Positions 1 to 12,219 of a DNA stretch of 64,000 nucleotides are shown one piece after another. This DNA is from Ferrovum sp. JA12 (lineage in GTDB: Bacteria; Pseudomonadota; Gammaproteobacteria; Burkholderiales; Ferrovaceae), in NCBI RefSeq assembly GCF_001431705.1, contig NZ_LJWX01000002.1, positions 835,352 through 899,351 on the forward strand. The letters run 5' to 3'. Numbering within the stretch: the first letter of the stretch is position 1; every line of letters starts with the position of its first letter. A program made the translations under genes and the position numbers. The notes beneath the pieces were generated by a model. It was not told where the DNA came from and did no database searches. It worked only from the letters and a program-made list of their open reading frames with translations.

Positions 1-228
1 TTATTAAAACTTAGCACTCTGGTTTATCAATCAGGGGCTATGGATTATGTGTCTCTCCAAGTAGTTCAGAGAGATGTATTTAACTCACAAGATGCAGAGG
101 CCAAATCAAGATTCGATCAATTGAGGTCAGTGGTGAGTTTGTATAAAGCCATTGGGGGTAGCGAACAAGATTCTAACCCTTGTGACAATCATCACCCTAT
201 TAACATCGTGACTAAACAGCTAAAATGA
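1..228 (+). CDS. TolC/NodT-type outer membrane factor, C-terminal end (partial)
   Basis: This is the 3' end of a gene that enters from outside the window. The open frame runs from base 1 to TGA at 226-228. The 75 visible residues resemble the last helical repeat of TolC/OprM-type outer membrane factors: YQSGAMDYVSLQVVQRD, then an SxDAEAKSR helix and LYKAIGG near the end. Such proteins form the outer membrane exit duct of type I secretion. Its stop overlaps the start of the ABC transporter gene (ATGA), so the two are probably translationally coupled. Together with the next two genes this makes a complete tripartite exporter. Only the tail is visible, so the subfamily is uncertain. Confidence 0.8.
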   Translation, partial: LLKLSTLVYQSGAMDYVSLQVVQRDVFNSQDAEAKSRFDQLRSVVSLYKAIGGSEQDSNPCDNHHPINIVTKQLK

Positions 229-3200
229 CAAAAAAAATAATTAAAAAAGTAGGTGAAAGCTTACTAGACAGTCTATCACCTCTCAGAGAAGACCTGCATT
301 GGATAATTTTATCGAGCTTTGTGATATCACTTCTCGCTCTAGCTACACCATTGATAATGCTTCAAGTGTATGACCGAATTCTTGCTAAGGGTTCCATTGA
401 AACATTAAAAGTCATTATGGGTGGGACAATACTAGCTGTATTCTTTGAATCACTTGTAAAAATCATTCGCTCCCATTTATCCTCATGGATTGCTGCTCGC
501 TTCGAGTATCGTGCCATGAATGAAATCGCATCGCGTCTCTTAGCTTTACAGCTACATGAATTTGAAACTGCTGGAGCGGGCTATCACAATGAACATTTCA
601 AAGCAATTCAATCCTTGAAGTCCTATTATTCTGGTCAGACCTTTCAAAATCTAATGGATATTCCATTCACTTTAATCTACATGCTAGTCATGGTATTAAT
701 TAATCCATTAATAGGGATTGTTGTCTGCCTAGGATATGTCATTTTTTTCATTACTATTTGGAAGAGCAATCGCCACTATGAAGATATTATTAAACAAAAA
801 AATCAAATTGATTTACGCCGGACTAACTTTTTAGTTGAGACATTAGGAAACATTCATACCTTAAAGTCAATGGGTATGGAAACGCTCATGTTACGTCGTT
901 ACGAAAAGCTTCAGGAAACCAGTGCTAAAAGTATGCAACAAGTCTCTTTTGCCATGGATATAGCACTTAATATCGGCACTGTTTTTTCACCTATGATAAG
1001 TATGCTCGTTGTTACATTAGGAGCGTATTTTGTTATCAAAGGAGAAATGACTACGGGTGATCTTGCTGCTTGTCTCCTACTGAGTGGTCGATCCATTTCA
1101 CCTATACAAAAATTAGGAAGTATATGGACGAGACAGAAACAAGAAAATATCATGCAGGATGATTTAAATAATGTCTTAAAAAATTCACCTCTACCCAATG
1201 AAAACGAATACATAAAACCGGAATTTGACACGGGTGTTATTGCATTAAGGAATATTACATACACATTCCCCAAAGCAAAGCTTCCAATTTTCAAAGATAT
1301 ATCCTTAGAAATAAAACAAGGAGAAGCCATATGTATCCATGGTGTTACAGGAAGCGGAAGAACAACACTTTTGCAAATATTAGCAGGTTTAGTCAAACCA
1401 TCTCATGGTGAAGTAGTTTTTAATAACTTACCCTTGGATAAAATCGGTTCCACAAATTTAAAAAAAATCTTAAGTTATTTACCGCAAAGAACAAACTTAT
1501 TTGAAGGGACTTTAATTGAAAATATAAGTCTTTTTGATGAGAAAAAAATTACTCAAGCACTTGAACAATCCAAAATTCTTAAAATTAGCGATTTTGTTGC
1601 TAAATTACCTAAGGGATGGGACTCTCCTGTGGGCGACGGTGCTGTGGAGAGTATGCCCCCAGGTTATCGTCAAAGAATCTCGTTAGTAAAGGGACTAACC
1701 TACGACCCTCACATTATTTTGTTTGATGATGCGACATCTTCAATAGATTTAGAGGGTGAGAAACTAATAATCGACTATCTGTACTCAGTTAAAAATGTAA
1801 AAACCTTAGTTATCGTTACTCAACGCCCCTCTATACAAAATATTGCAGATACACACTACACGCTGATTAATGGAGAGCTCTTGCCAGGAATAATTGAGCA
1901 ACCAAACGTTCGTGCCCCCCTTATTCCGGCGAAAAATAACGTTTCTGACATAACACACCAAAGTATTTTTGTTGACGACTGGAAACGAATAGACCTATCG
2001 GTAAAGTCTGTTTTTAAACAATCTAACGAATTGTCCTCTTGTTTACCAGAGTTGCTTAAGGCCTTAGGTTGGCGGATATCCCCAAGAGATTTGGTTGAGG
2101 CTCTTCCTTATTTCCAAGAATCCTTAGAACTTCCAGCTTTTGAAAATACAATTGTACAGTTGGGATTTATGCCACATAAAATTGATTGTGGTATTCATGA
2201 TATTGATCAACGATTAACTCCTTGTCTGTTTACATCTGACACAGAAAGCTTTGTGGTGTACGAAGTCACAAACAATTATATTAAAATCAAAAGGAGCATT
2301 AACACAGATTTTGAATTCCTCACTAACGATTCAGATATTAGTGGAACTGTCTTTTTCTTCACAAAAAACAAAACACAACAAAACAAAAATTTTGTTTCCT
2401 GGGTAAAGACTTCAACACTTCGATTTAGGTCATTGGTGGCTTATTCTGGCATCTCTTCTATTTTATCGGGAATTATATTGATATTAAGCTCTCTGTTTAT
2501 GATGGGTGTATACAACAATATTATTCCATCGGGATCAACCACTATACTATTTCACTTAGCAATTGGTGTTGGTATGGCAATAATTCTATCTACAATTTTA
2601 ATTATCCATCGTGGCAAAATGCTCTCTTATATTGCTGCAAGAATAGAATTCTTATTTGGAACGGCTATAGTCAAGCATATTTTTAGCTTACCACCCATAT
2701 TAAGTGAGCGCTCATCTGTGGGTGCACAATTAGCTAGAATCAGCGGCTTTGAAGCAATCCGCGATCTTTTTACGGGACCGCTTGCCAGTACAATTTTAGA
2801 GTTACCTGCCACAATTGTAGTGACTGTTGCGCTAGGCTTAATCAACCACTATGCCCTATTGGTGCTAACAATTACAGTTTTATTGTATTTCTTCCTCTAT
2901 TGGGTATTAGAACCAATAAGCACAAAGCTAGTGATTGAAAATGGTCTTGCCTCTACAAAAAGAAATCAATTTACTATTGAAATGATAACAAAAATGAGAG
3001 CTATCAGAGAGTCAGGTGGAGATTTGATATGGTTAAAACGTTTTAAAGAAATTTCCTCAGAAGCCACAATGTCAGCCTATAAAACTGAAAAACTGTCTGC
3101 TACTTTAGTGGGAGTGTCTTATTTTATTATGATGGCTTCGGGACTTGGCATCATTACAATCACAGTCCCAATGACGTTAAATAAAACCTTAGGTCCTGGT

Positions 3201-4079
3201 GTGTTAGTCGCATCTATGTTTTTTATGTGGAGAATTCTCTCACCATTACAAATTTTCTTTACAAATATGCCAAGAATTGATCGGATCAAAACAGCGAGCC
3301 GACAGCTTGAGGCTCTAATGAATATACAAAGTGAGCGATTTGAAACCAGTACCTCTCCAATTCAAAGAGGTTTGAACGCTCAAATTCATTTTTCTAGAGT
3401 GTCATTTCGTTATTCACTTACTGTAGACCCAGCATTGATTGGTGCGGATTTCACCATCAATCCTGGAGAGGTTATTGCTATTACAGGAGCAAATGGCGGA
3501 GGAAAATCCACCATCCTTAAATTATTACTTGGAATGTATCAACCACAGGCAGGATCAATTTTAATTGATGGAGTAGATATAAGACAATTAGATCCTCTGG
3601 AATTAAGACGACTATTTGGCTACGCGCCGCAAGAAACACAGTTTTTTAGAGCCACAATAATACAAAATTTAAGACTAGCAAAACCTGAGGCAACAATTGA
3701 AGAAATAAGACAAGTATTAGAATGGGCTGGAGCATTGGAGCAAATCAATAAATTACCCAATGGACTAGACTATAGAATCGGTGACAATGCATCTGAACAA
3801 CTCCCTGCAAGCTTAAGACAAAAACTAGTCTTGGCAAGAGCCTATATTACCGATGCCCCTATAATGCTTTTTGATGAGCCAAGTGCTGGACTTGATGATA
3901 TTGGAGATAAAAAATTTATTGAAATGATAAATTATTTTAAAGGTAAAAAAACCGTCTTATTTATTACACACAGACCAAGTCATATGCGACTTGCAGATAC
4001 CTTAATTATCATGCAGCAAGGCTATATTCGAGCTGCAGGCTCACCGGAAAAGTTATTAAAAATAAAACCAGCAGCCTAA
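225..4079 (+). CDS. Type I secretion ABC transporter, two half-transporters in one chain
   Basis: Inner membrane ATPase/permease of a type I secretion system, 1284 residues, about twice the usual length. Visible order: membrane domain 1 (about 1-300), nucleotide-binding domain 1 (about 330-560), a C39-peptidase-like segment (about 590-695) without an obvious catalytic cysteine motif, membrane domain 2 (about 715-1000), nucleotide-binding domain 2 (about 1035-1284). NBD1 looks catalytically weak: its Walker A has Arg379 in place of Lys, Walker B has Asp502 where the catalytic Glu belongs, and the H-loop has Gln533 instead of His. NBD2 keeps Lys1094, Asp1217-Glu1218 and His1249. Neither half has a normal LSGGQ signature (MPPGYRQ and LPASLRQ). 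It likely exports the adhesin encoded at 9226-12219, which carries a type I C-terminal signal. A fusion of two genes is inferred from the domain order; the frame is open throughout. Confidence 0.9.
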   Translation: MTKKIIKKVGESLLDSLSPLREDLHWIILSSFVISLLALATPLIMLQVYDRILAKGSIETLKVIMGGTILAVFFESLVKIIRSHLSSWIAARFEYRAMNEIASRLLALQLHEFETAGAGYHNEHFKAIQSLKSYYSGQTFQNLMDIPFTLIYMLVMVLINPLIGIVVCLGYVIFFITIWKSNRHYEDIIKQKNQIDLRRTNFLVETLGNIHTLKSMGMETLMLRRYEKLQETSAKSMQQVSFAMDIALNIGTVFSPMISMLVVTLGAYFVIKGEMTTGDLAACLLLSGRSISPIQKLGSIWTRQKQENIMQDDLNNVLKNSPLPNENEYIKPEFDTGVIALRNITYTFPKAKLPIFKDISLEIKQGEAICIHGVTGSGRTTLLQILAGLVKPSHGEVVFNNLPLDKIGSTNLKKILSYLPQRTNLFEGTLIENISLFDEKKITQALEQSKILKISDFVAKLPKGWDSPVGDGAVESMPPGYRQRISLVKGLTYDPHIILFDDATSSIDLEGEKLIIDYLYSVKNVKTLVIVTQRPSIQNIADTHYTLINGELLPGIIEQPNVRAPLIPAKNNVSDITHQSIFVDDWKRIDLSVKSVFKQSNELSSCLPELLKALGWRISPRDLVEALPYFQESLELPAFENTIVQLGFMPHKIDCGIHDIDQRLTPCLFTSDTESFVVYEVTNNYIKIKRSINTDFEFLTNDSDISGTVFFFTKNKTQQNKNFVSWVKTSTLRFRSLVAYSGISSILSGIILILSSLFMMGVYNNIIPSGSTTILFHLAIGVGMAIILSTILIIHRGKMLSYIAARIEFLFGTAIVKHIFSLPPILSERSSVGAQLARISGFEAIRDLFTGPLASTILELPATIVVTVALGLINHYALLVLTITVLLYFFLYWVLEPISTKLVIENGLASTKRNQFTIEMITKMRAIRESGGDLIWLKRFKEISSEATMSAYKTEKLSATLVGVSYFIMMASGLGIITITVPMTLNKTLGPGVLVASMFFMWRILSPLQIFFTNMPRIDRIKTASRQLEALMNIQSERFETSTSPIQRGLNAQIHFSRVSFRYSLTVDPALIGADFTINPGEVIAITGANGGGKSTILKLLLGMYQPQAGSILIDGVDIRQLDPLELRRLFGYAPQETQFFRATIIQNLRLAKPEATIEEIRQVLEWAGALEQINKLPNGLDYRIGDNASEQLPASLRQKLVLARAYITDAPIMLFDEPSAGLDDIGDKKFIEMINYFKGKKTVLFITHRPSHMRLADTLIIMQQGYIRAAGSPEKLLKIKPAA

Positions 4080-4083
4080 TATC

Positions 4084-5082
4084 ATGAAAAAAAATATAAA
4101 AAAAACATTGTTCGGTAATAATTCAGATAATTATTTAGCAAAAACTATTTTACTAGAAGAAGCCATATCTCCTCTTTACTTAAAAGGTACAGTTTTTTTT
4201 ATTGCTATTGTTCTATTTGCTTTTATAATTTGGTCAATTTTTGCAAGATTGGACGTGGTGGCAAAAGCAACCGGGAAAATAGTACCCAGTGACTCAGTTC
4301 AAATTATTCAGCATCAAGATGGTGGGCGTATAAAAAAAATATTTGTGGATGAAGGAAGTCGTGTAAAAAAAGGAGATATGTTAATCCAAATTGATGATAC
4401 AGAAGCCAAATCAGATTTGCAGTCATTAATGGCAAAGAGTAACAAACTAAAAAGTGAAGTGGATTATCTGACCGAATTAGCGAAAATCAGGTCAGATCTA
4501 GCGAAACAAAAGCTAGTACCTAAAACAAGTTCATTAGATGCAGAGAAATCCTTAGCTCAAACGGAAGGGGACTATGAAAGTACTGTCTTTGAAATCAATA
4601 AATTAAAAGATCGATTATCAAGAACGGAAATCACATCTCCAGCTAATGGAATTGTCCAAGATTTAAAATATCGAACTATCGGTGGGATTATTCCACCAGG
4701 CGCTACGGTAATGAACGTAGTTCCTTCCAATGATGAAATTCGGGCAGAGTTACATGTTTCAACAAATGATATTGGCCATATCAAAGTAGGACAAAATGTT
4801 AGATTGAAATTAGATACTTACGATTTTATGCGTTATGGAGTAATTAATGGAAAAATATCAATCGTGTCTGCTTACAGCAGCATGGATGATAAAACAAATT
4901 TACCCTATTTCCTTTGTTACACCACTGTCCCTAAAAGGTTTCTAGGTAAAAATGGGAAAGATCTACCTGTTCAGCCTGGTATGACCTTACAAGCTGATAT
5001 AGTTACGGATAATCAATCTATTTTGGAGTATATCTTAAGACCACTATATATTGCTTTTAAAGAAGGTATGAAAGAACGATAA
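4084..5082 (+). CDS. HlyD-family type I secretion adaptor, short form
   Basis: Periplasmic adaptor linking the ABC transporter to the outer membrane duct. It has a cytoplasmic N-terminus, one membrane helix at about residues 35-54, then the lipoyl/barrel-sandwich halves (GKIVPSDSVQIIQHQDGG at the start of the first, EITSPANGIVQDL in the second) and a C-terminal PGMTLQADI segment typical of HlyD/LapC. At 332 residues it is shorter than the usual 390-480, and most of the loss appears to be in the coiled-coil hairpin between the two lipoyl halves (about 115-180). It begins 4 bases after the transporter gene and ends 4 bases before the regulator gene, so it lies in the same operon. Confidence 0.9.
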   Translation: MKKNIKKTLFGNNSDNYLAKTILLEEAISPLYLKGTVFFIAIVLFAFIIWSIFARLDVVAKATGKIVPSDSVQIIQHQDGGRIKKIFVDEGSRVKKGDMLIQIDDTEAKSDLQSLMAKSNKLKSEVDYLTELAKIRSDLAKQKLVPKTSSLDAEKSLAQTEGDYESTVFEINKLKDRLSRTEITSPANGIVQDLKYRTIGGIIPPGATVMNVVPSNDEIRAELHVSTNDIGHIKVGQNVRLKLDTYDFMRYGVINGKISIVSAYSSMDDKTNLPYFLCYTTVPKRFLGKNGKDLPVQPGMTLQADIVTDNQSILEYILRPLYIAFKEGMKER

Positions 5083-5086
5083 TACT

Positions 5087-6655
5087 ATGGTGAAGCTTTC
5101 TAAAAGACAAAATCAAATACTATCATTATTAGAGGAAGGAAAATCTAATAATGATATAAGCCATTTACTTAAAGTAACAGAAGGAACAGTTAAACAACAT
5201 TTATATCAACTTTATAAAAAACTAGAGGTAAAAAATAGAACCCAAGCATTATTAAAATTTCAAAAAATCAAAAAAAACAACGTTCAACTGCCCAGTTCCA
5301 TAAGTAAAAAGAACACCCCAAAAACAAATCAAAAGTACATATGGAAGCTCATATCGACTCTATCCATTATTCCATCAATAGACCAATCTAAAAATAATAC
5401 AGCAGTAATCCTAGACTTTAATCAACAAATGAATTTGTTAAAAAATGAAATGGAAATTATTTGCAATATTCTAGATGGAAAGTTATTTATTATTCCTGGT
5501 ATTGGAATAATACTGTTATTTGGTTTCCCAGAGTCTCACGCAGATGATTGCCACCGATCTGTCATTGCCGCAAAATATATTCTAGAGTGGGTGAGGAATA
5601 ACTTAACTATTTCTATAAAATGTGGGATTGCTACACTTCCAGAAATTTATCAACTTGATTCAAATATTGTATTTAAAGCAGAGTCGTTTGAATTGGCTTC
5701 TAAACTTGGAAAATTATCAAAAGAATTTTGTGTACTTGTTAATGAAATTACTTTTCAATTTACAAAATCACTTTTTTATTATTCAGAACCCAATAAAACT
5801 GAAGACGATAAAAGCACTGTTTATAGAATTTTGACAAATGAAATGCCAAAGTATGAAAATCATTGCTATTTTAATAATGTAATCGAATTAATTGATATTA
5901 TAAAAAAACATAAATTACTAGTCTTAAAAATAATTAATTCAGATTTCACTGAAATGGTATTAATACAAGACTTGCTACACAATAAAATGCTTACGGATAA
6001 CTTATTAAGTATTAGAGTTTCCCTATCTAATTTAAAAGATGAGGAAAACTTTTATCAAAATATACTTGGGCAAATGATATTGAATAAAAATTTAGTGCAA
6101 ATTAATTTGTATGCAAATTTTTTAAAAAATAAAAAATTAACTACCTTTGAAAAACTAAAAAAAATAATCAAAGAAATCAGTGACAAACAAAAATTAACAT
6201 TTAATCTAGTTGGGTTTAACTCTGAGTTTGAGTTAAACAATATCATTAAATTATTCGATACAAATGATAACAATAGGAATATCTGCATCATCACTTCAGA
6301 AATCAAAAAATCAATAAATAATAAAATAAAAATTAAATTTATACCATTTACAAATAAAGAACAAAACGAAAGCGCTATAAAAACAATGTTTATTACCAAA
6401 TATCAATACAATAAACATGTTAGTCATTACCATAATGAATTATCCACTATACTCTACAACCTAAATTCAAAATCGTTGGAAATATTAAGTAGACTGGCGG
6501 ACAATAAAGTGATTTATTTACAGAATATTACAGATTCTATAAATGAGTTATTAAACACAAATCTTGTTATGATTAAAGAAAAAAAATTAGTTCTAAAGAA
6601 TAATAAATATAAAGAGGTATTAAAAGAAATTATTTTCAATCCGAAAATACCGTAA
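5087..6655 (+). CDS. LuxR-type HTH protein with degenerate nucleotide-cyclase-like domain
   Basis: Residues 1-60 form a LuxR/FixJ-type DNA-binding helix-turn-helix (LSKRQNQILSLLEEGKSN, then VTEGTVKQHLYQLYKKL). It is unusual to find it at the N-terminus. Residues about 100-245 resemble the class III adenylate/guanylate cyclase homology domain as found in multidomain regulators (GIILLFGFPESHADD, then an R-x-x-x-A-A helix). I do not see the metal-binding aspartates of active cyclases, so this part is probably a sensor or structural domain. The last 270 residues match nothing I recognise. The gene is strongly AT-rich. Lying between the adaptor and glycosyltransferase genes, it may regulate this adhesin locus; that is inference from position. 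Confidence 0.65.
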   Translation: MVKLSKRQNQILSLLEEGKSNNDISHLLKVTEGTVKQHLYQLYKKLEVKNRTQALLKFQKIKKNNVQLPSSISKKNTPKTNQKYIWKLISTLSIIPSIDQSKNNTAVILDFNQQMNLLKNEMEIICNILDGKLFIIPGIGIILLFGFPESHADDCHRSVIAAKYILEWVRNNLTISIKCGIATLPEIYQLDSNIVFKAESFELASKLGKLSKEFCVLVNEITFQFTKSLFYYSEPNKTEDDKSTVYRILTNEMPKYENHCYFNNVIELIDIIKKHKLLVLKIINSDFTEMVLIQDLLHNKMLTDNLLSIRVSLSNLKDEENFYQNILGQMILNKNLVQINLYANFLKNKKLTTFEKLKKIIKEISDKQKLTFNLVGFNSEFELNNIIKLFDTNDNNRNICIITSEIKKSINNKIKIKFIPFTNKEQNESAIKTMFITKYQYNKHVSHYHNELSTILYNLNSKSLEILSRLADNKVIYLQNITDSINELLNTNLVMIKEKKLVLKNNKYKEVLKEIIFNPKIP

Positions 6656-6660
6656 ATCAG

Positions 6661-8496
6661 ATGTTTAAGTTTAATTTAACTCAATTTGAAAGAGATTGCC
6701 TTGATAAGCAGGGGCAAGCATATAAGGATTTGATTGCTTTGTTAGACCATATGAATACTCACAGTGGTGATTTACCTCATATGGAGTTTTTTAATTTACC
6801 ACCGCGACTCAATGTTGAAAAGAGAGTCAATTATTTACTAAACCGCATAATTACTTCTGTCTCTTTTTTATTTACTTCAACTGATAGCCAAATAGAGCCT
6901 TATTTAGTAGTTCAATTATTTACTCATCAGCGTTGGTTGGCGTTAATTTTTGGTGTTAGTGTATTAAAAAATGCAGATCATTTAATTAATCTTTTTCTTA
7001 TAAAAAACACACCACAACAGATAGAATTTAAAAAAAATAAAATTATTTTAATACTTCTATTATATTTTCCTGACTCTCAATTTAATATTCCTATAGATCA
7101 AATATGGCTTATAAATAAAGAAATAACTCTTTGTTGGTGTTTTGCGATATTAAGTAACAGACATTTAATTACAGAAGAAGCTTGTACAAAAAGAGAGAAA
7201 ATATTAGAGTTTCTTGCAAAAATATCTATGGAAGATATAAAAATAAACGTCAAACTAATCCCTGAGGGGATACTTCATGATGTATATATGCATTGTAGTT
7301 ATGCATTCACTCCATTAAAACATGAAGTAAAAAAACTGATTAACAAAATTATACAAACTTATTTACAATATAATAACATCTCCGGTACCACACCAGTACC
7401 ATTAAAGAAACCACACAAAATACTAGTAGTAGTTGAATGGTTTACTTCCGCACACTCTATATATCGAACTCATTCTAAAAGTTTAGAAGGCCTAAAAGAT
7501 CATTTTGAAGTAATTGGTGCTGGCTTTTCTAATAAGATAGATAAAGTGACAATTCAGTCTTTTAATAAATTTATATCAATACCTAAACTATCTTTAGCAA
7601 AACAAGTTCAATTTATAAAAGAGATAATAAAACAAGAACAAATTTCAATCCTTTATATGCCTAGTATCGGAATGTCTCCATTAACAATTTGGTTATCTAA
7701 TACTCGTAGTTGTATTTATCAAATAATTGCATTAGGTCATCCCGCTACCACTTTCTCTGAATATATTGACTATGTAGTTGTGGAAGAAGATTTTATAGGA
7801 AATCCAAACTTGTTTTCAGAAAAAATCCTTCAGTTAAAAAGTAACGGGATGCCATATAGATACCCTTCACATACTAATGATTATTTATCCAATACTAATT
7901 CTTTTAAAAAATCCTCCGAAGTAGCAATTGCTGTATGTTCAACTAGTATGAAATTAAATTATGTTTTTTTAAGTACACTTAATAAAATCAGTAGACACTC
8001 GAAAAAGAAAATTCATTTTAATTTTTTAATTGGTAATGCTCGTAACTTAACTCATAATTACATTGAAAGTAGTATCAAATCAATAATTGAATCTGATTGC
8101 ACCGTTTATTCATCTAGACTTTATGATAATTATTTACAATGCCTAAATGATAACAATATTTTCCTCAATCCTTTTCCGTTTGGAAATACTAATGGAATTA
8201 TCGACTGTGTAATTGTAAATAAAATAGGTATATGTAAAACTGGTGATGAAGTACATGAACACATCGATGAAGGTTTATTTACAAGACTTGGATATCCCAA
8301 ATGGACTGTATGTAAAACCATAGATGAGTACATTAAATCTGCAATCAAATTAATTGATATTTATTCTGATTTTGATACCAATTATCATGAAGAGGTTAAA
8401 ACAAAACTTAAGGATAAGGTAATTAATGGTGATGTAAAAAATTTAGCATATTTATTTATGAGCTTAATTAACTCAAAAAATGATTCAAACAAGTAA
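6661..8496 (+). CDS. HMW1C-type cytoplasmic N-glycosyltransferase (GT41)
   Basis: Predicted soluble enzyme that adds a hexose (glucose from UDP-Glc in characterised relatives) to Asn in N-X-S/T sequons. Both halves of HMW1C are present. The all-alpha domain has HQRWLALIFG near residue 95 and HDVYMHCSY near 203. The GT41 domain begins near residue 251 (VVVEWFTSAHSIYRTHS) and continues with YMPSIGM, ALGHPATT (about 357), TSMKLN (the Lys that contacts UDP in A. pleuropneumoniae NGT), NPFPFGNTNGIID (503-515) and KTGDEVHEHIDEGLF (526-540). The length of 611 is close to the 620-650 of known enzymes. It sits 5 bases after the regulator gene and overlaps the next gene by 17 bases. The sequon-rich adhesin at 9226-12219 is the obvious substrate. 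Known relatives serve two-partner or trimeric autotransporter adhesins, so the type I setting is the unusual part. Confidence 0.93.
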   Translation: MFKFNLTQFERDCLDKQGQAYKDLIALLDHMNTHSGDLPHMEFFNLPPRLNVEKRVNYLLNRIITSVSFLFTSTDSQIEPYLVVQLFTHQRWLALIFGVSVLKNADHLINLFLIKNTPQQIEFKKNKIILILLLYFPDSQFNIPIDQIWLINKEITLCWCFAILSNRHLITEEACTKREKILEFLAKISMEDIKINVKLIPEGILHDVYMHCSYAFTPLKHEVKKLINKIIQTYLQYNNISGTTPVPLKKPHKILVVVEWFTSAHSIYRTHSKSLEGLKDHFEVIGAGFSNKIDKVTIQSFNKFISIPKLSLAKQVQFIKEIIKQEQISILYMPSIGMSPLTIWLSNTRSCIYQIIALGHPATTFSEYIDYVVVEEDFIGNPNLFSEKILQLKSNGMPYRYPSHTNDYLSNTNSFKKSSEVAIAVCSTSMKLNYVFLSTLNKISRHSKKKIHFNFLIGNARNLTHNYIESSIKSIIESDCTVYSSRLYDNYLQCLNDNNIFLNPFPFGNTNGIIDCVIVNKIGICKTGDEVHEHIDEGLFTRLGYPKWTVCKTIDEYIKSAIKLIDIYSDFDTNYHEEVKTKLKDKVINGDVKNLAYLFMSLINSKNDSNK

Positions 8497-9225: not shown

Positions 9226-12219
9226 TCAACTATCTCCATGTTTATTTACATGCTGCAACATAACGTCATGCGAATTTATGGCAGAACTTGATTCATAATG
9301 TATGGTGTGATTGACCGTGTCATAGTAAAAGTTCGCATTATTGTTATGAGATCCGGCAGTGCTGTTATCGACAGAAATATTGGCCACTTCCACCCATCCA
9401 TTTTGACCACCAGATCCGGATGTATCAACAGAAACATTAAAATAATTACTGCCATGATCGGTAGCAGACGTAATATCTATCCAATTGGTGAGATTAGTAC
9501 TATTAATTTGGTTGTTTCCAAAAATTTCTGACAATGAAAGCTGGTCTTGATGATTATTGGAAGAAAAGTTAGTAATAGAGACCAAGTCGTGAACAGATAA
9601 ATCAAATATATTAACTCCTTGATGGTCATGAGCTAAATTAACATCAGACTTTCCTTGTCCATCAGTACTTGTATAGTTTGTAAAGTCAAATATTGAATTA
9701 GAATCTGCAGCGTTGATTGTTACATTTCCAGAATCAACATTAAACGTTTGTGATAAGTTATTAAATGAATGAGTTGTTTCATTTAAAATAGTATTCCCGG
9801 AAGTAAAATTAAACACTTCAGAATCATTATTTAAATTATCAGTAATATTTAAATTAACAGTTTGTTGGTTATTATTGCTATCAGATAAATTATAATGTTG
9901 AACACCGTCACCTACGTTAAGATTAACAGTTGTATCCCCAGAGTTATCAAGGTTGAATGTATTATTGCCAGTACCAACAGAAATATTTTCATTAAGCGAT
10001 CCAGATGTATTTAGATTGAATATATCTGAGCCATTACCTGTATTTATATTGACATTACCAGATGAAGAATCATTCACATTATATGTGTCTGATCCATTAC
10101 CTGCCTGAATATTGATATCTCCAGCCTGATTATCTGTAGTGACGTTAAACAAGTCATTTCCATCACCGGTAATAATATTTACATTACCAGACCCAGAATC
10201 TTTCAGATTAAATGTGTCTGATCCATTACCAGCCTGAATATTGATATCACCAGCTTGGTTATCTGTAGTGACGTTAAACGAGTCATTTCCATCACCAGTA
10301 GTGATATTTGCATTACCAGATGAAGAGTCATTCACATTGTATGTGTCTGATCCATTACCTGCTTGAATATTGATATCACCAGCCTGGTTATCCGTAGTGA
10401 CATTAAACGAGTCATTTCCATCACCAGTAGTGATATTTGCATTACCAGCTGAAGAATCATTCACATTGTATGTGTCTGATCCATTACCTGCTTGAATATT
10501 GATATCACCAGCCTGGTTATCCGTAGTGACATTAAACGAGTCATTTCCATCACCAGTAGTGATATTTGCATTACCAGCTGAAGAATCATTCACATTATAT
10601 GTGTCTGATCCATCACCTGCTTGAATATTGATATCACCACCCTGATTATTCATAGAAACGTTAAACGAATCGTTTCCAGAGCCAGTATTAATATTCAAAT
10701 AACCATTATTGGAAATATTCACATTAAAAGAATCTGAACCATTACCCAAATCAATTGTATTGCTATTATAGTTATTTTCTGTAACCGATAAGTTATAACT
10801 ACCATTACTTCCATCGCCGTAATCTGAATTAGTGATTTTCTTAGAAATATAATCTTGATTGTCATTGTCCGGCGACACATTCATCGTCAACGTCTGCGTC
10901 GACGTATTGCCATGACTGTCCTGAACGGTATAGGTAAACGTATCGTTCACCGTGGTGTTGTGCTGCACTCCCTCCATCGCACTTTCGTTCACACTGTAGC
11001 TGTAGCTGCCATTCGCATTCAGCGTCAACGTGCCATAACTGCCCGTCAGCGTCTCGGCCGTGCCAGAGCCCGTCACCACACTCAACGTCTCGCCGCTCTC
11101 CGTCGTGGCCAAATTGATCGTCCCGCTGACCGCACCGCCTCCATCCTGCGCATGCGTCGTCGTCGCCACCGCCGTAAAGCCCGTCGTGTCATTGTCCGGC
11201 GACACATTCATCGTCAACGTCTGCGTCGACGTATTGCCATGACTGTCCTGAACGGTATAGGTAAACGTATCGTTCACCGTGGTGTTGTGCTGCACTCCCT
11301 CCATCGCACTTTCGTTCACACTGTAGCTGTAGCTGCCATTCGCATTCAGCGTCAACGTGCCATAACTGCCCGTCAGCGTCTCGGCCGTGCCAGAGCCCGT
11401 CACCACACTCAACGTCTCGCCGCTCGTCGTGGCCAAATTGATCGTCCCGCTGGCCGCACCGCCTCCATCCTGCGCATGCGTATGATCCGCTTTGCCTATA
11501 AATCCAGAAGTAAAATTGACCGCAATATTTGAAGTAGTTAATCCTGTAGTGCTTGTGGAACCGAAAGCGTTGGTATTGAAAGTAGATGAAGTAGGTGAAG
11601 TAATTATTGATGAAACGGTATTAATGCTAGATGGTACATTAGATGAATTCGTGGATGAAACATTACCAGATGAACTAGGGGAACCTTGCGATTCAACAGT
11701 TGTTTGAGTAGCAATATTTACGGTAATACTTTTTGACGAACCTGTGCCCACATGAGGCGGCGTAACACCAGAGGCCAATCTCTCTGTAGAATGGACATGA
11801 TCAGTAGTATGTATGCCTGGTGAATTGTTCAGTAAATTAGCTTGAAAATTCGCATTTGAAAAAGCCGGGTTGTTATTTCCTGAACCATCATTGACATTAA
11901 AGTTTAATTGTAGCTTTGTATTTTGAGTATCAGTATTTTGAGCTGAGTTATTTTGTGCCAACTCTGTATTTTTAAATGCAGCCTGTACCGTGGATTTTAA
12001 TACCGTATTTTCACTTGGTTGATTGACAACACTGGGATTATCCGGCGTAACCCTTACCGTCTCAGCTGACTCATGTAATGTGCCTTGGGTAGTACTCGTT
12101 GCACTAACTGGATTGGTCGGTAGCGTTTGTTGTAAGGAGGTTAATTGATCCAGATGCAAAGCATCTGAATTAATTTGCGATGCGCCTTCGTTGGAATCTA
12201 TACTGGTGACGTCAGCCAT
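9226..12219 (-). CDS. Sequon-rich RTX/VCBS adhesin, type I secretion substrate
   Basis: Predicted 997-residue surface or extracellular adhesin. Layout: Ser/Thr/Asn-rich disordered head (1-243), two nearly identical VCBS repeats (about 244-454), RTX-like repeats with a 43-residue period (about 507-724), further degenerate repeats, and a C-terminal type I secretion target domain (about 840-985, including DQLSLSEIFG, then FNVSVDTSGSGGQNGW). Repeat motifs such as GNGSDTY and GDGNDSF fit the calcium-binding G-x-G-x-D-x-aromatic pattern. I count about 60 N-X-S/T sequons and see no cysteine; lysine is scarce. A ribosome site AGGAA lies 6 bases before the start. The gene converges on the peptidase gene with 5 bases between them. 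No LapA-type retention module or di-alanine cleavage site is visible. Export by the adjacent type I system and glycosylation by the adjacent HMW1C-like enzyme are inferred. Confidence 0.88.
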   Translation of the reverse strand: MADVTSIDSNEGASQINSDALHLDQLTSLQQTLPTNPVSATSTTQGTLHESAETVRVTPDNPSVVNQPSENTVLKSTVQAAFKNTELAQNNSAQNTDTQNTKLQLNFNVNDGSGNNNPAFSNANFQANLLNNSPGIHTTDHVHSTERLASGVTPPHVGTGSSKSITVNIATQTTVESQGSPSSSGNVSSTNSSNVPSSINTVSSIITSPTSSTFNTNAFGSTSTTGLTTSNIAVNFTSGFIGKADHTHAQDGGGAASGTINLATTSGETLSVVTGSGTAETLTGSYGTLTLNANGSYSYSVNESAMEGVQHNTTVNDTFTYTVQDSHGNTSTQTLTMNVSPDNDTTGFTAVATTTHAQDGGGAVSGTINLATTESGETLSVVTGSGTAETLTGSYGTLTLNANGSYSYSVNESAMEGVQHNTTVNDTFTYTVQDSHGNTSTQTLTMNVSPDNDNQDYISKKITNSDYGDGSNGSYNLSVTENNYNSNTIDLGNGSDSFNVNISNNGYLNINTGSGNDSFNVSMNNQGGDINIQAGDGSDTYNVNDSSAGNANITTGDGNDSFNVTTDNQAGDINIQAGNGSDTYNVNDSSAGNANITTGDGNDSFNVTTDNQAGDINIQAGNGSDTYNVNDSSSGNANITTGDGNDSFNVTTDNQAGDINIQAGNGSDTFNLKDSGSGNVNIITGDGNDLFNVTTDNQAGDINIQAGNGSDTYNVNDSSSGNVNINTGNGSDIFNLNTSGSLNENISVGTGNNTFNLDNSGDTTVNLNVGDGVQHYNLSDSNNNQQTVNLNITDNLNNDSEVFNFTSGNTILNETTHSFNNLSQTFNVDSGNVTINAADSNSIFDFTNYTSTDGQGKSDVNLAHDHQGVNIFDLSVHDLVSITNFSSNNHQDQLSLSEIFGNNQINSTNLTNWIDITSATDHGSNYFNVSVDTSGSGGQNGWVEVANISVDNSTAGSHNNNANFYYDTVNHTIHYESSSAINSHDVMLQHVNKHGDS
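10050..10700 (-). repeat. 129-bp in-frame tandem repeat in the adhesin gene
   Basis: About five copies of a 129-base unit, each encoding 43 residues. A conserved gatatc anchor occurs at 10114, 10243, 10372, 10501 and 10630, exactly 129 bases apart. The central copies are almost identical; the outer ones diverge. Each full unit holds two RTX-like half-repeats and up to five N-X-S/T sequons. Arrays like this can gain or lose units by slippage, changing adhesin length. Confidence 0.9.
10863..11490 (-). repeat. Duplicated GC-rich VCBS-repeat DNA in the adhesin gene
   Basis: Two tandem copies of about 327 bases, nearly identical in DNA, encoding VCBS domains that each end in MNVSPDND. One copy carries an extra codon (ATTESGE versus ATTSGE). 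Base composition differs sharply from the flanks: the 60 bases at 11041-11100 are 70% G+C by hand count, while those at 10741-10800 are 25%. The borders lie near 10860 and 11490. Confidence 0.9.

Follow-up and report, generated by a model that had tools for sequence, protein, structure and literature searches.

A single gene encodes two unlike ABC half-transporters

The window, i.e. the whole stretch of 64,000 nucleotides (nt) from Ferrovum sp. JA12 analysed here (contig NZ_LJWX01000002.1, positions 835,352 to 899,351), contains at 225-4079 an open reading frame (ORF) for a double-length ATP-binding cassette (ABC) exporter of a type I secretion system (T1SS). The two halves of this protein, each with a membrane domain and a nucleotide-binding domain (NBD), differ in their ATP-site motifs, and we consider it probable that the protein is a fused motor with two unequal sites that exports an adhesin-like protein encoded nearby. 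Genomes are given as G numbers (G000, the window's own genome; G001, a genome of the same genus; other numbers, other genomes) and loci as L numbers. The exporter gene has the following parts:

225..4079, + strand: fused two-half type I secretion ABC exporter, 1284 amino acids (aa), a single uninterrupted ORF
303..1085, + strand: membrane domain 1 (half 1, without a C39-like domain), PF00664
1212..1892 (limits approximate), + strand: NBD1, degenerate, from the motif table and alignment
2010..2429 (limits approximate), + strand: C39-like domain (about aa 596-735), from profile homology
2439..3227, + strand: membrane domain 2 (half 2), PF00664
3372..4076 (limits approximate), + strand: NBD2, from the motif table and alignment

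Two ABC_tran stretches were detected in the 1284-aa ORF. Together with PF00664 and the hhalign comparison given below, they bear out a sequence-only reading of this DNA, which had placed two membrane and two ATPase domains in one frame with a C39-like segment between them. G001 encodes an orthologue of 1287 aa with 74% identity and the identical three substitutions in NBD1.

The two ATP sites are unequal

The ATP-site motifs of the window protein, all on the + strand and all from the alignment and the motif table, are:

1359-1361: R379 in NBD1 Walker A, HGVTGSGRT
1653-1667: NBD1 signature MPPGY, aa 477-481
1728-1730: D502 in NBD1 Walker B, ILFDD
1821-1823: Q533 in NBD1 H-loop, VTQRPS
3504-3506: K1094, intact, in NBD2 Walker A, GANGGGKST
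3801-3815: NBD2 signature LPASL, aa 1193-1197, altered
3876-3878: E1218 of NBD2, intact
3969-3971: H1249 of NBD2, intact

NBD1 has thus lost all four of the canonical signature, Lys, Glu and His, and NBD2 lacks only LSGGQ; on all of these points the motif table and alignment agree with the sequence-only reading. In MPPGY of NBD1 the second Gly is present and the Ser is gone. According to PMC7756269, an ATP site consists of the Walker A and B motifs, the Q-loop and the H-loop of one NBD together with the signature of the other NBD. Site 1 of the window protein combines R379, D502 and Q533 with LPASL from NBD2, the pattern of a degenerate nucleotide-binding site 1 (NBS1); the Q-loop Gln of site 1 is retained.

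Between G000 and G001, NBD1 is 69% identical with a pN of 0.200, and NBD2 is 85% identical with a pN of 0.098, i.e. NBD1 has changed at about twice the rate of NBD2. Since pN is low although synonymous changes are close to saturation, NBD1 seems not to be in decay.

Motif loss in 49 pairs and in other T1SS-like ABC ORFs

The motifs were surveyed in 49 loci, 25 fused and 24 split, which are our selection and no random draw: they comprise the own genome, 35 of the 52 other phylum matches, five of the nine other class matches, and eight from the searches of 61 genomes and of the order; for G450 the split copy alone was included. The comparison set, drawn from those searches too, contained 39 of 43 matches, two ORFs of the G035 pair (among the 49) and two non-T1SS ORFs of the own genome being omitted. 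Three of these 39 come from two adjacent-ABC loci (L017 twice, L024), for which "standalone" would be the wrong word. NCBIfam checks of nine of these ORFs put eight above a PrtD, HlyB or LssB cut-off and L010 below.

All 39 comparison ORFs have LSGG, with Q as the fifth residue in 38, and all 39 have the Walker A Lys, the catalytic Glu and the switch His. By contrast, LSGGQ was found in none of the 98 halves of the 49 pairs. The half 1 signature is non-canonical in every row; its Ser is replaced by Pro in 44/49 and its second Gly is kept in 47/49. In half 2 the residue at the Ser position is P, S, A or N, and 28/49 rows keep the second Gly. The switch His is lost from half 1 in 34/49 rows, with at least seven changes on the tree if gains and losses are both counted, and from half 2 in 4/49 rows, with three changes. 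Losses of the catalytic Glu (7/49 in half 1, 3/49 in half 2) and of the Walker A Lys (4/49 and 1/49) are fewer. Of the 49 pairs, G000 and G001 alone have the NBD1 triple R, D and Q (K to R, E to D, H to Q).

No K, E or H is missing from either NBD of fused G008 and G013 (same family) or of fused G214 and G330 (same order); losses of K, E and H do not track the double-length architecture as such. Moreover, PrtD-type two-gene tandems outside the clade keep LSGG (both ORFs in G056, the one ORF tested in G032), and the tandem arrangement alone is therefore not tied to motif loss. The sequence-only reading had reckoned with relatives in which two separate, symmetric genes have intact motifs: split pairs are indeed numerous, but the clade is without LSGGQ and the intact PrtD-type tandems lie outside it.

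The C39-like domain

The NCBIfam LssB model aligns half 2 from profile position 2, i.e. with the C39-like segment included. In hhalign, a profile of ten C39-like segments matched the N-domains from eight further T1SS ABC ORFs (probability 96.6, E-value 6.8e-10). Pfam Peptidase_C39 matched weakly (three of the ten members, best E 0.012); the window's own middle segment had no Peptidase_C39 match in Pfam, and a PDB sequence search with the C39-like segment gave no credible match. We picked the column that we take to be that of the catalytic His from the C39 motif; it has Ser in the window and His in 0/49 half-2 rows. Because of this Ser, the segment is probably no peptidase but a domain of the C39-like domain (CLD) type. 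Structure prediction without relatives gave a mean pLDDT of 33.6 for the segment and of 35.0 for chain residues 85-1284, values too low to be informative.

The halves are old paralogues

Identity averages 41% within half 1 or within half 2 and 25% between the halves. In the phylogeny of each half that the sequence-only reading had proposed, here run with 20 pairs and 21 other ORFs, half 1 and half 2 form two clean clades separate from LssB-like, PrtD-like, HlyB-like and MsbA-like ORFs. Half-1 distances track half-2 distances (r 0.97; 1176 non-independent pairs), and the two genes of split loci overlap by 4 nt in 17/24 cases (mechanically called ORFs). We read the halves as two old paralogues that elsewhere are adjacent genes, with no recent duplication; on the plain reading, a translationally coupled pair of unlike halves existed before, and its genes would have fused later. 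An ancient duplication may have preceded the tandem pair, and the deep branches of the tree of the halves with LssB, PrtD and HlyB have no firm order.

The split ABC genes of G450 (L115:7276-11223) and G581 (L133:6131-10222) lie in one frame with one stop between them, one step from fusion.

Descent of half 1 from PrtD was also considered. In its favour, half 1 has as its top PDB sequence hit 5l22 "ABC transporter (HlyB subfamily)" (E 2.2e-61), which we take to be a PrtD, and a whole-chain scan exceeded the PrtD cut-off, though by summing two stretches. However, half 1 alone matches LssB best and the tree has four separate groups (PrtD-like, LssB-like, half 1 and half 2); we regard this descent as doubtful.

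Distribution of fused genes

A near full-length match in a single frame was found in 4/61 genomes including the own (G000, G001, G013 and G008). A profile of these four found fused frames in 6/399 genomes of the order, own included; frames uninterrupted across both halves were counted by us in 20/398 genomes of the phylum, own included; and in the class sample 10/369 genomes matched, the own fused and nine unfused. The order, phylum and class counts are lower bounds because at most two candidates were scored per genome and thresholds were strict. G002 and G003, of the same genus, gave no match at E 1e-90. Among 72,556 plasmid records, four match the fused G457 protein (at least 80% of length, E 1e-100), all from Azospirillum. 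When named relatives were scanned for, the single ABC locus retrieved came from Massilimicrobiota (25% identity) and was not used.

On the tree 24 of the 25 fused rows group together (support 93, open fork); fused G575 stands apart, adjoining the long-branched G035. A single origin of the fusion was not rejected (p-AU 0.21). By plain identity, the window protein has no greater similarity to fused rows than to split ones.

The exporter gene lies in a T1SS operon

The genes around the exporter gene are:

1..228, + strand: C-terminal end of a TolC-type outer membrane channel (gene of 529 aa, L025:13991-15580), PF02321 OEP, 129.3 bits, cut-off 22
4084..5082, + strand: HlyD-type adaptor, 332 aa, TIGR01843, 279.5 bits, cut-off 208.65
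5087..6655, + strand: LuxR-type helix-turn-helix (HTH) regulator, 522 aa, GerE
6661..8496, + strand: HMW1C-like N-glucosyltransferase, PF18071, 67.6 bits, and PF18254, 68 bits
8480..9220, + strand: ClpP-like protein with an N-terminal hydrophobic stretch (by eye), PF00574, 21.2 bits, cut-off 20.2
9226..12219, - strand: adhesin-like protein, 997 aa, candidate cargo, VCBS TIGR01965, 54 bits, cut-off 15.5

The end of the channel gene overlaps the start of the ABC gene by 4 nt; the gaps from the ABC gene through the HlyD-type and LuxR-type genes to the glucosyltransferase gene are 4, 4 and 5 nt, followed by the overlapping ClpP-like gene. The order of the operon is identical in G001. A DDE transposase gene (L025:12766-13869) lies just upstream of the operon; beyond it, at about 3 kb from the channel gene, a CHASE-PAS-GGDEF-EAL protein is encoded.

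The exporter is encoded together with both T1SS partners, a HlyD-type adaptor and a TolC-type channel. The own genome has one T1SS adaptor above the cut-off and PF00664 at four places, two of them in the 225-4079 ORF. The third is MsbA (773 bits, cut-off 602), and the fourth, with the signature LSGGE, matches no NCBIfam model at E 1e-120. Because of the single adaptor and the nature of these other two ORFs, the system appears to be the sole T1SS of the genome. For LapG-type release, no Peptidase_C93 (PF06035) was found in the genome, in a search of which LapD was not part.

In an alignment of four adaptors, that of the window lacks about 120 aa relative to those encoded next to the fused G013 and G008 genes, with gaps in mid-protein that presumably correspond to the coiled-coil hairpin; the G001 adaptor is equally short. 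At nine fused loci (L114, L118, L121, L122, L123, L124, L125, L127 and L129) HlyD-type genes flank the ABC gene on both sides; perhaps such pairs form a mixed adaptor ring matching the unequal pump.

A profile of the LuxR proteins of the window and G001 matched an ORF in 19/25 fused and 0/24 split loci. An AAA_16 ATPase domain is present in the LuxR-HTH regulators of three relatives (L064:12725-14398, L118:8661-10595 and L066:5954-7651); a Pfam scan of the window regulator showed none.

The candidate cargo is a sequon-rich adhesin-like protein

The gene for the 997-aa protein converges on the ABC operon and contains a 129-nt repeat in five copies (91%). The protein has VCBS repeats, 12 GxGxD turns and no Cys, and scores 78.8 bits against the Bap/LapF model NF045619, below the cut-off of 180. 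Moreover, it has 61 N-x-S/T sequons, of which ten begin in or beside GxGxD turns; shuffled sequences have a mean of 42 (SD 5), and none of 1000 reached 61. This density of 6.1 per 100 aa compares with at most 2.03 in the other non-overlapping ORFs of at least 150 aa in the window. The G001 adhesin, 301 aa of which are on the contig, is likewise sequon-rich by eye. The N-glucosyltransferase scores 512.4 bits against NF049992, below the cut-off of 1000. HMW1C-like enzymes are usually tied to type V secretion; here the gene lies in a type I operon.

Large proteins also lie beside related exporters. The fused gene and hlyD adjoin the gene for an Ig-like protein of about 5,190-5,520 aa by annotated span in three Azospirillum plasmid records; of one such protein 3135 aa were scanned, and these contain Cadherin_4 and RTX repeats. 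The Azospirillum fused proteins have the half-1 His replaced and K, E and H of half 2 retained. The split pair of G035 is followed by a cadherin/Big_9 repeat protein, and ORFs of 1000 to 2700 aa adjoin the pair at several other loci. Of three such ORFs scanned, the one beside the G330 pair matched Pfam families only weakly.

Discussion

We propose that the protein encoded at 225-4079 would be the inner-membrane motor of a T1SS. Two neighbouring ABC paralogues, of which only that of half 2 has a C39-like domain, would have become one chain; one polypeptide would then be a complete exporter, with a fixed 1:1 pair of unlike halves, and together with the HlyD-type and TolC-type proteins encoded on either side it would export the adhesin-like protein encoded nearby. 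Site 1 in the window's genus (Walker A and B and H-loop of NBD1 with the NBD2 signature) fits the known degenerate-NBS1 pattern, which suggests that it would bind ATP with little or no hydrolysis. Site 2 (Walker A and B and H-loop of NBD2 with the NBD1 signature), we think, hydrolyses ATP despite MPPGY, and its altered signature would be where the clade departs from the known pattern. Altogether, a large surface adhesin is probably exported through an uncommon variant of an established cycle. The data show the architecture of the chain, its conservation, the paralogy of the halves, the motif bias and the gene order; the identity of the hydrolysing site, the cargo and the glycosylation step we infer.

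Several observations weigh against the proposal. Site 2 has K1094, E1218 and H1249 but takes the MPPGY signature, so that neither ATP site is canonical. The sequence-only reading had seen an asymmetric pump with one working site; the asymmetry stands, with the same residues in G001 and the loss of the His biased to half 1, but a single working site is less secure, because the NBD1 signature lent to site 2 is also non-canonical. The bias itself is not uniform: His is gone from NBD2 as well as NBD1 in fused G305 and G575, catalytic residues are changed in both halves of the distant split pairs G035, G463 and G764, and in G764 the asymmetry is reversed, half 2 being more degenerate. Apart from G001, the window protein is at most 36% identical to the rows of the 49 loci and the closest are split pairs, because of which an independent fusion in its lineage is possible. 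As to the cargo, the 997-aa protein is likely that of the fused pump because of the position of its gene and because of its repeats; no T1SS C-terminal signal model was among its NCBIfam matches, and the large ORFs beside the G575 and G214 pairs had no Pfam match. Finally, since those of G000 and G001 were the sole loci of the 49 to match the N-glucosyltransferase profile, glycosylation before export, suggested by association, would be a feature of the window's genus at most.

The rival explanations concern either the chain or its sites. A join of two genes by assembly or sequencing, which the sequence-only reading had named as a possible refutation, is practically excluded: although G450 and G581 show that the two genes can lie in frame with an intervening stop, nothing was found in the window itself that would favour a join, and the chain is uninterrupted in G001, in about two dozen other genomes and in the three Azospirillum plasmid records, so that the 1287-aa orthologue and the recurrence of fused frames in other genera rule out an error particular to this assembly. 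Recent internal duplication of one half-transporter gene with subsequent decay of the first copy would explain why both halves match TIGR03375 best (358 and 403.5 bits); it is nevertheless very improbable, since each half resembles the corresponding half in distant genomes more closely than the half it is joined to, and the two halves fall into clean clades.

It is also conceivable, if on balance unlikely, that both nucleotide sites are catalytically poor, with slow turnover or with a site completed by the cargo or a partner protein, the inequality being secondary. The lack of LSGGQ from all 98 halves fits this explanation, as do G008, G013, G214 and G330, which keep K, E and H in both NBDs and yet have similarly odd signatures. 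However, the second Gly, the residue of the signature whose backbone contacts ATP, is retained in half 1 in those 47 of 49 rows, and NBD2 retains K in 48/49, E in 46/49 and H in 45/49. A fused motor with unequal sites that exports its adhesin-like neighbour is the reading we prefer.

We also put forward, tentatively and as somewhat doubtful, a wider claim: that the pairs would constitute a widespread, unnamed clade of tandem or fused exporters of giant adhesins in which LSGGQ has been abandoned in both NBDs, half 1 has an LPxG-type signature and the signature Ser would be dispensable at either site, to which the window's genus would add a dead site 1 and N-glucosylation of the cargo coupled to export. 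The clade holds protein-secretion exporters with equal and unequal sets of K, E and H, both split and fused; therefore, the roles of site inequality and of the signature Ser in the export of long proteins can be compared directly within it. The Azospirillum plasmid copies, annotated only as "ATP-binding cassette domain-containing protein", offer named organisms for such work. Moreover, the four halves of two pairs that were tested singly all fell below the family cut-off, and model-based annotation would therefore tend to miss the clade.

Relation to known systems

The closest family is the LssB/LapB type (TIGR03375), which is the best model for both halves, aligns with half 2 over model positions 2-690 of 696 including the C39-like domain, and likewise has HlyD and TolC partners. 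Unlike its members, the window chain has no LSGGQ, two fused halves and a half 1 without the C39-like domain; the scores of 358 and 403.5 bits lie below the cut-off of 693.1, which is passed only by the sum of the two stretches (752.2 bits). Among the entries listed in searches of an open-licence library, none dealt with fused or LSGGQ-less T1SS exporters.

Pairs of different ABC proteins are known. As stated in PMC3034196 and PMC4316617, the MARTX T1SS needs RtxB and RtxE, two different ABC proteins, with RtxD and TolC, and an RtxB/RtxE heterodimer was suggested for the export of the very large MARTX toxins; by these descriptions, its ABC genes flank the adaptor gene, whereas here they are adjacent or fused and lie upstream of it. 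A two-ABC locus has also been described for Pseudoalteromonas BapP. The NHLP bacteriocin loci have an ABC pair of which one has a C39 domain (PMC6959600), but the whole window chain scores 411.4 and 384.7 bits against TIGR03796 and TIGR03797, whose cut-offs are 853.3 and 709.4.

Degenerate ATP sites are treated mainly for eukaryotic pumps in the review PMC7756269. It places the degenerate site of human full-length ABC proteins at NBS1 without exception; the NBD2 signature is then altered, E to D is frequent, H-loop changes occur in some cases, and ABCG5/G8 has K to R. All types of change at site 1 of the window protein are thus known from full-length or heterodimeric exporters such as TAP, CFTR, Pdr5 and ABCG5/G8; in that review, all occur in one protein only in the Pdr5-like case, with other letters. 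Unlike these transporters, the window protein is a putative bacterial protein-secretion pump, and its NBD1 signature is also altered.

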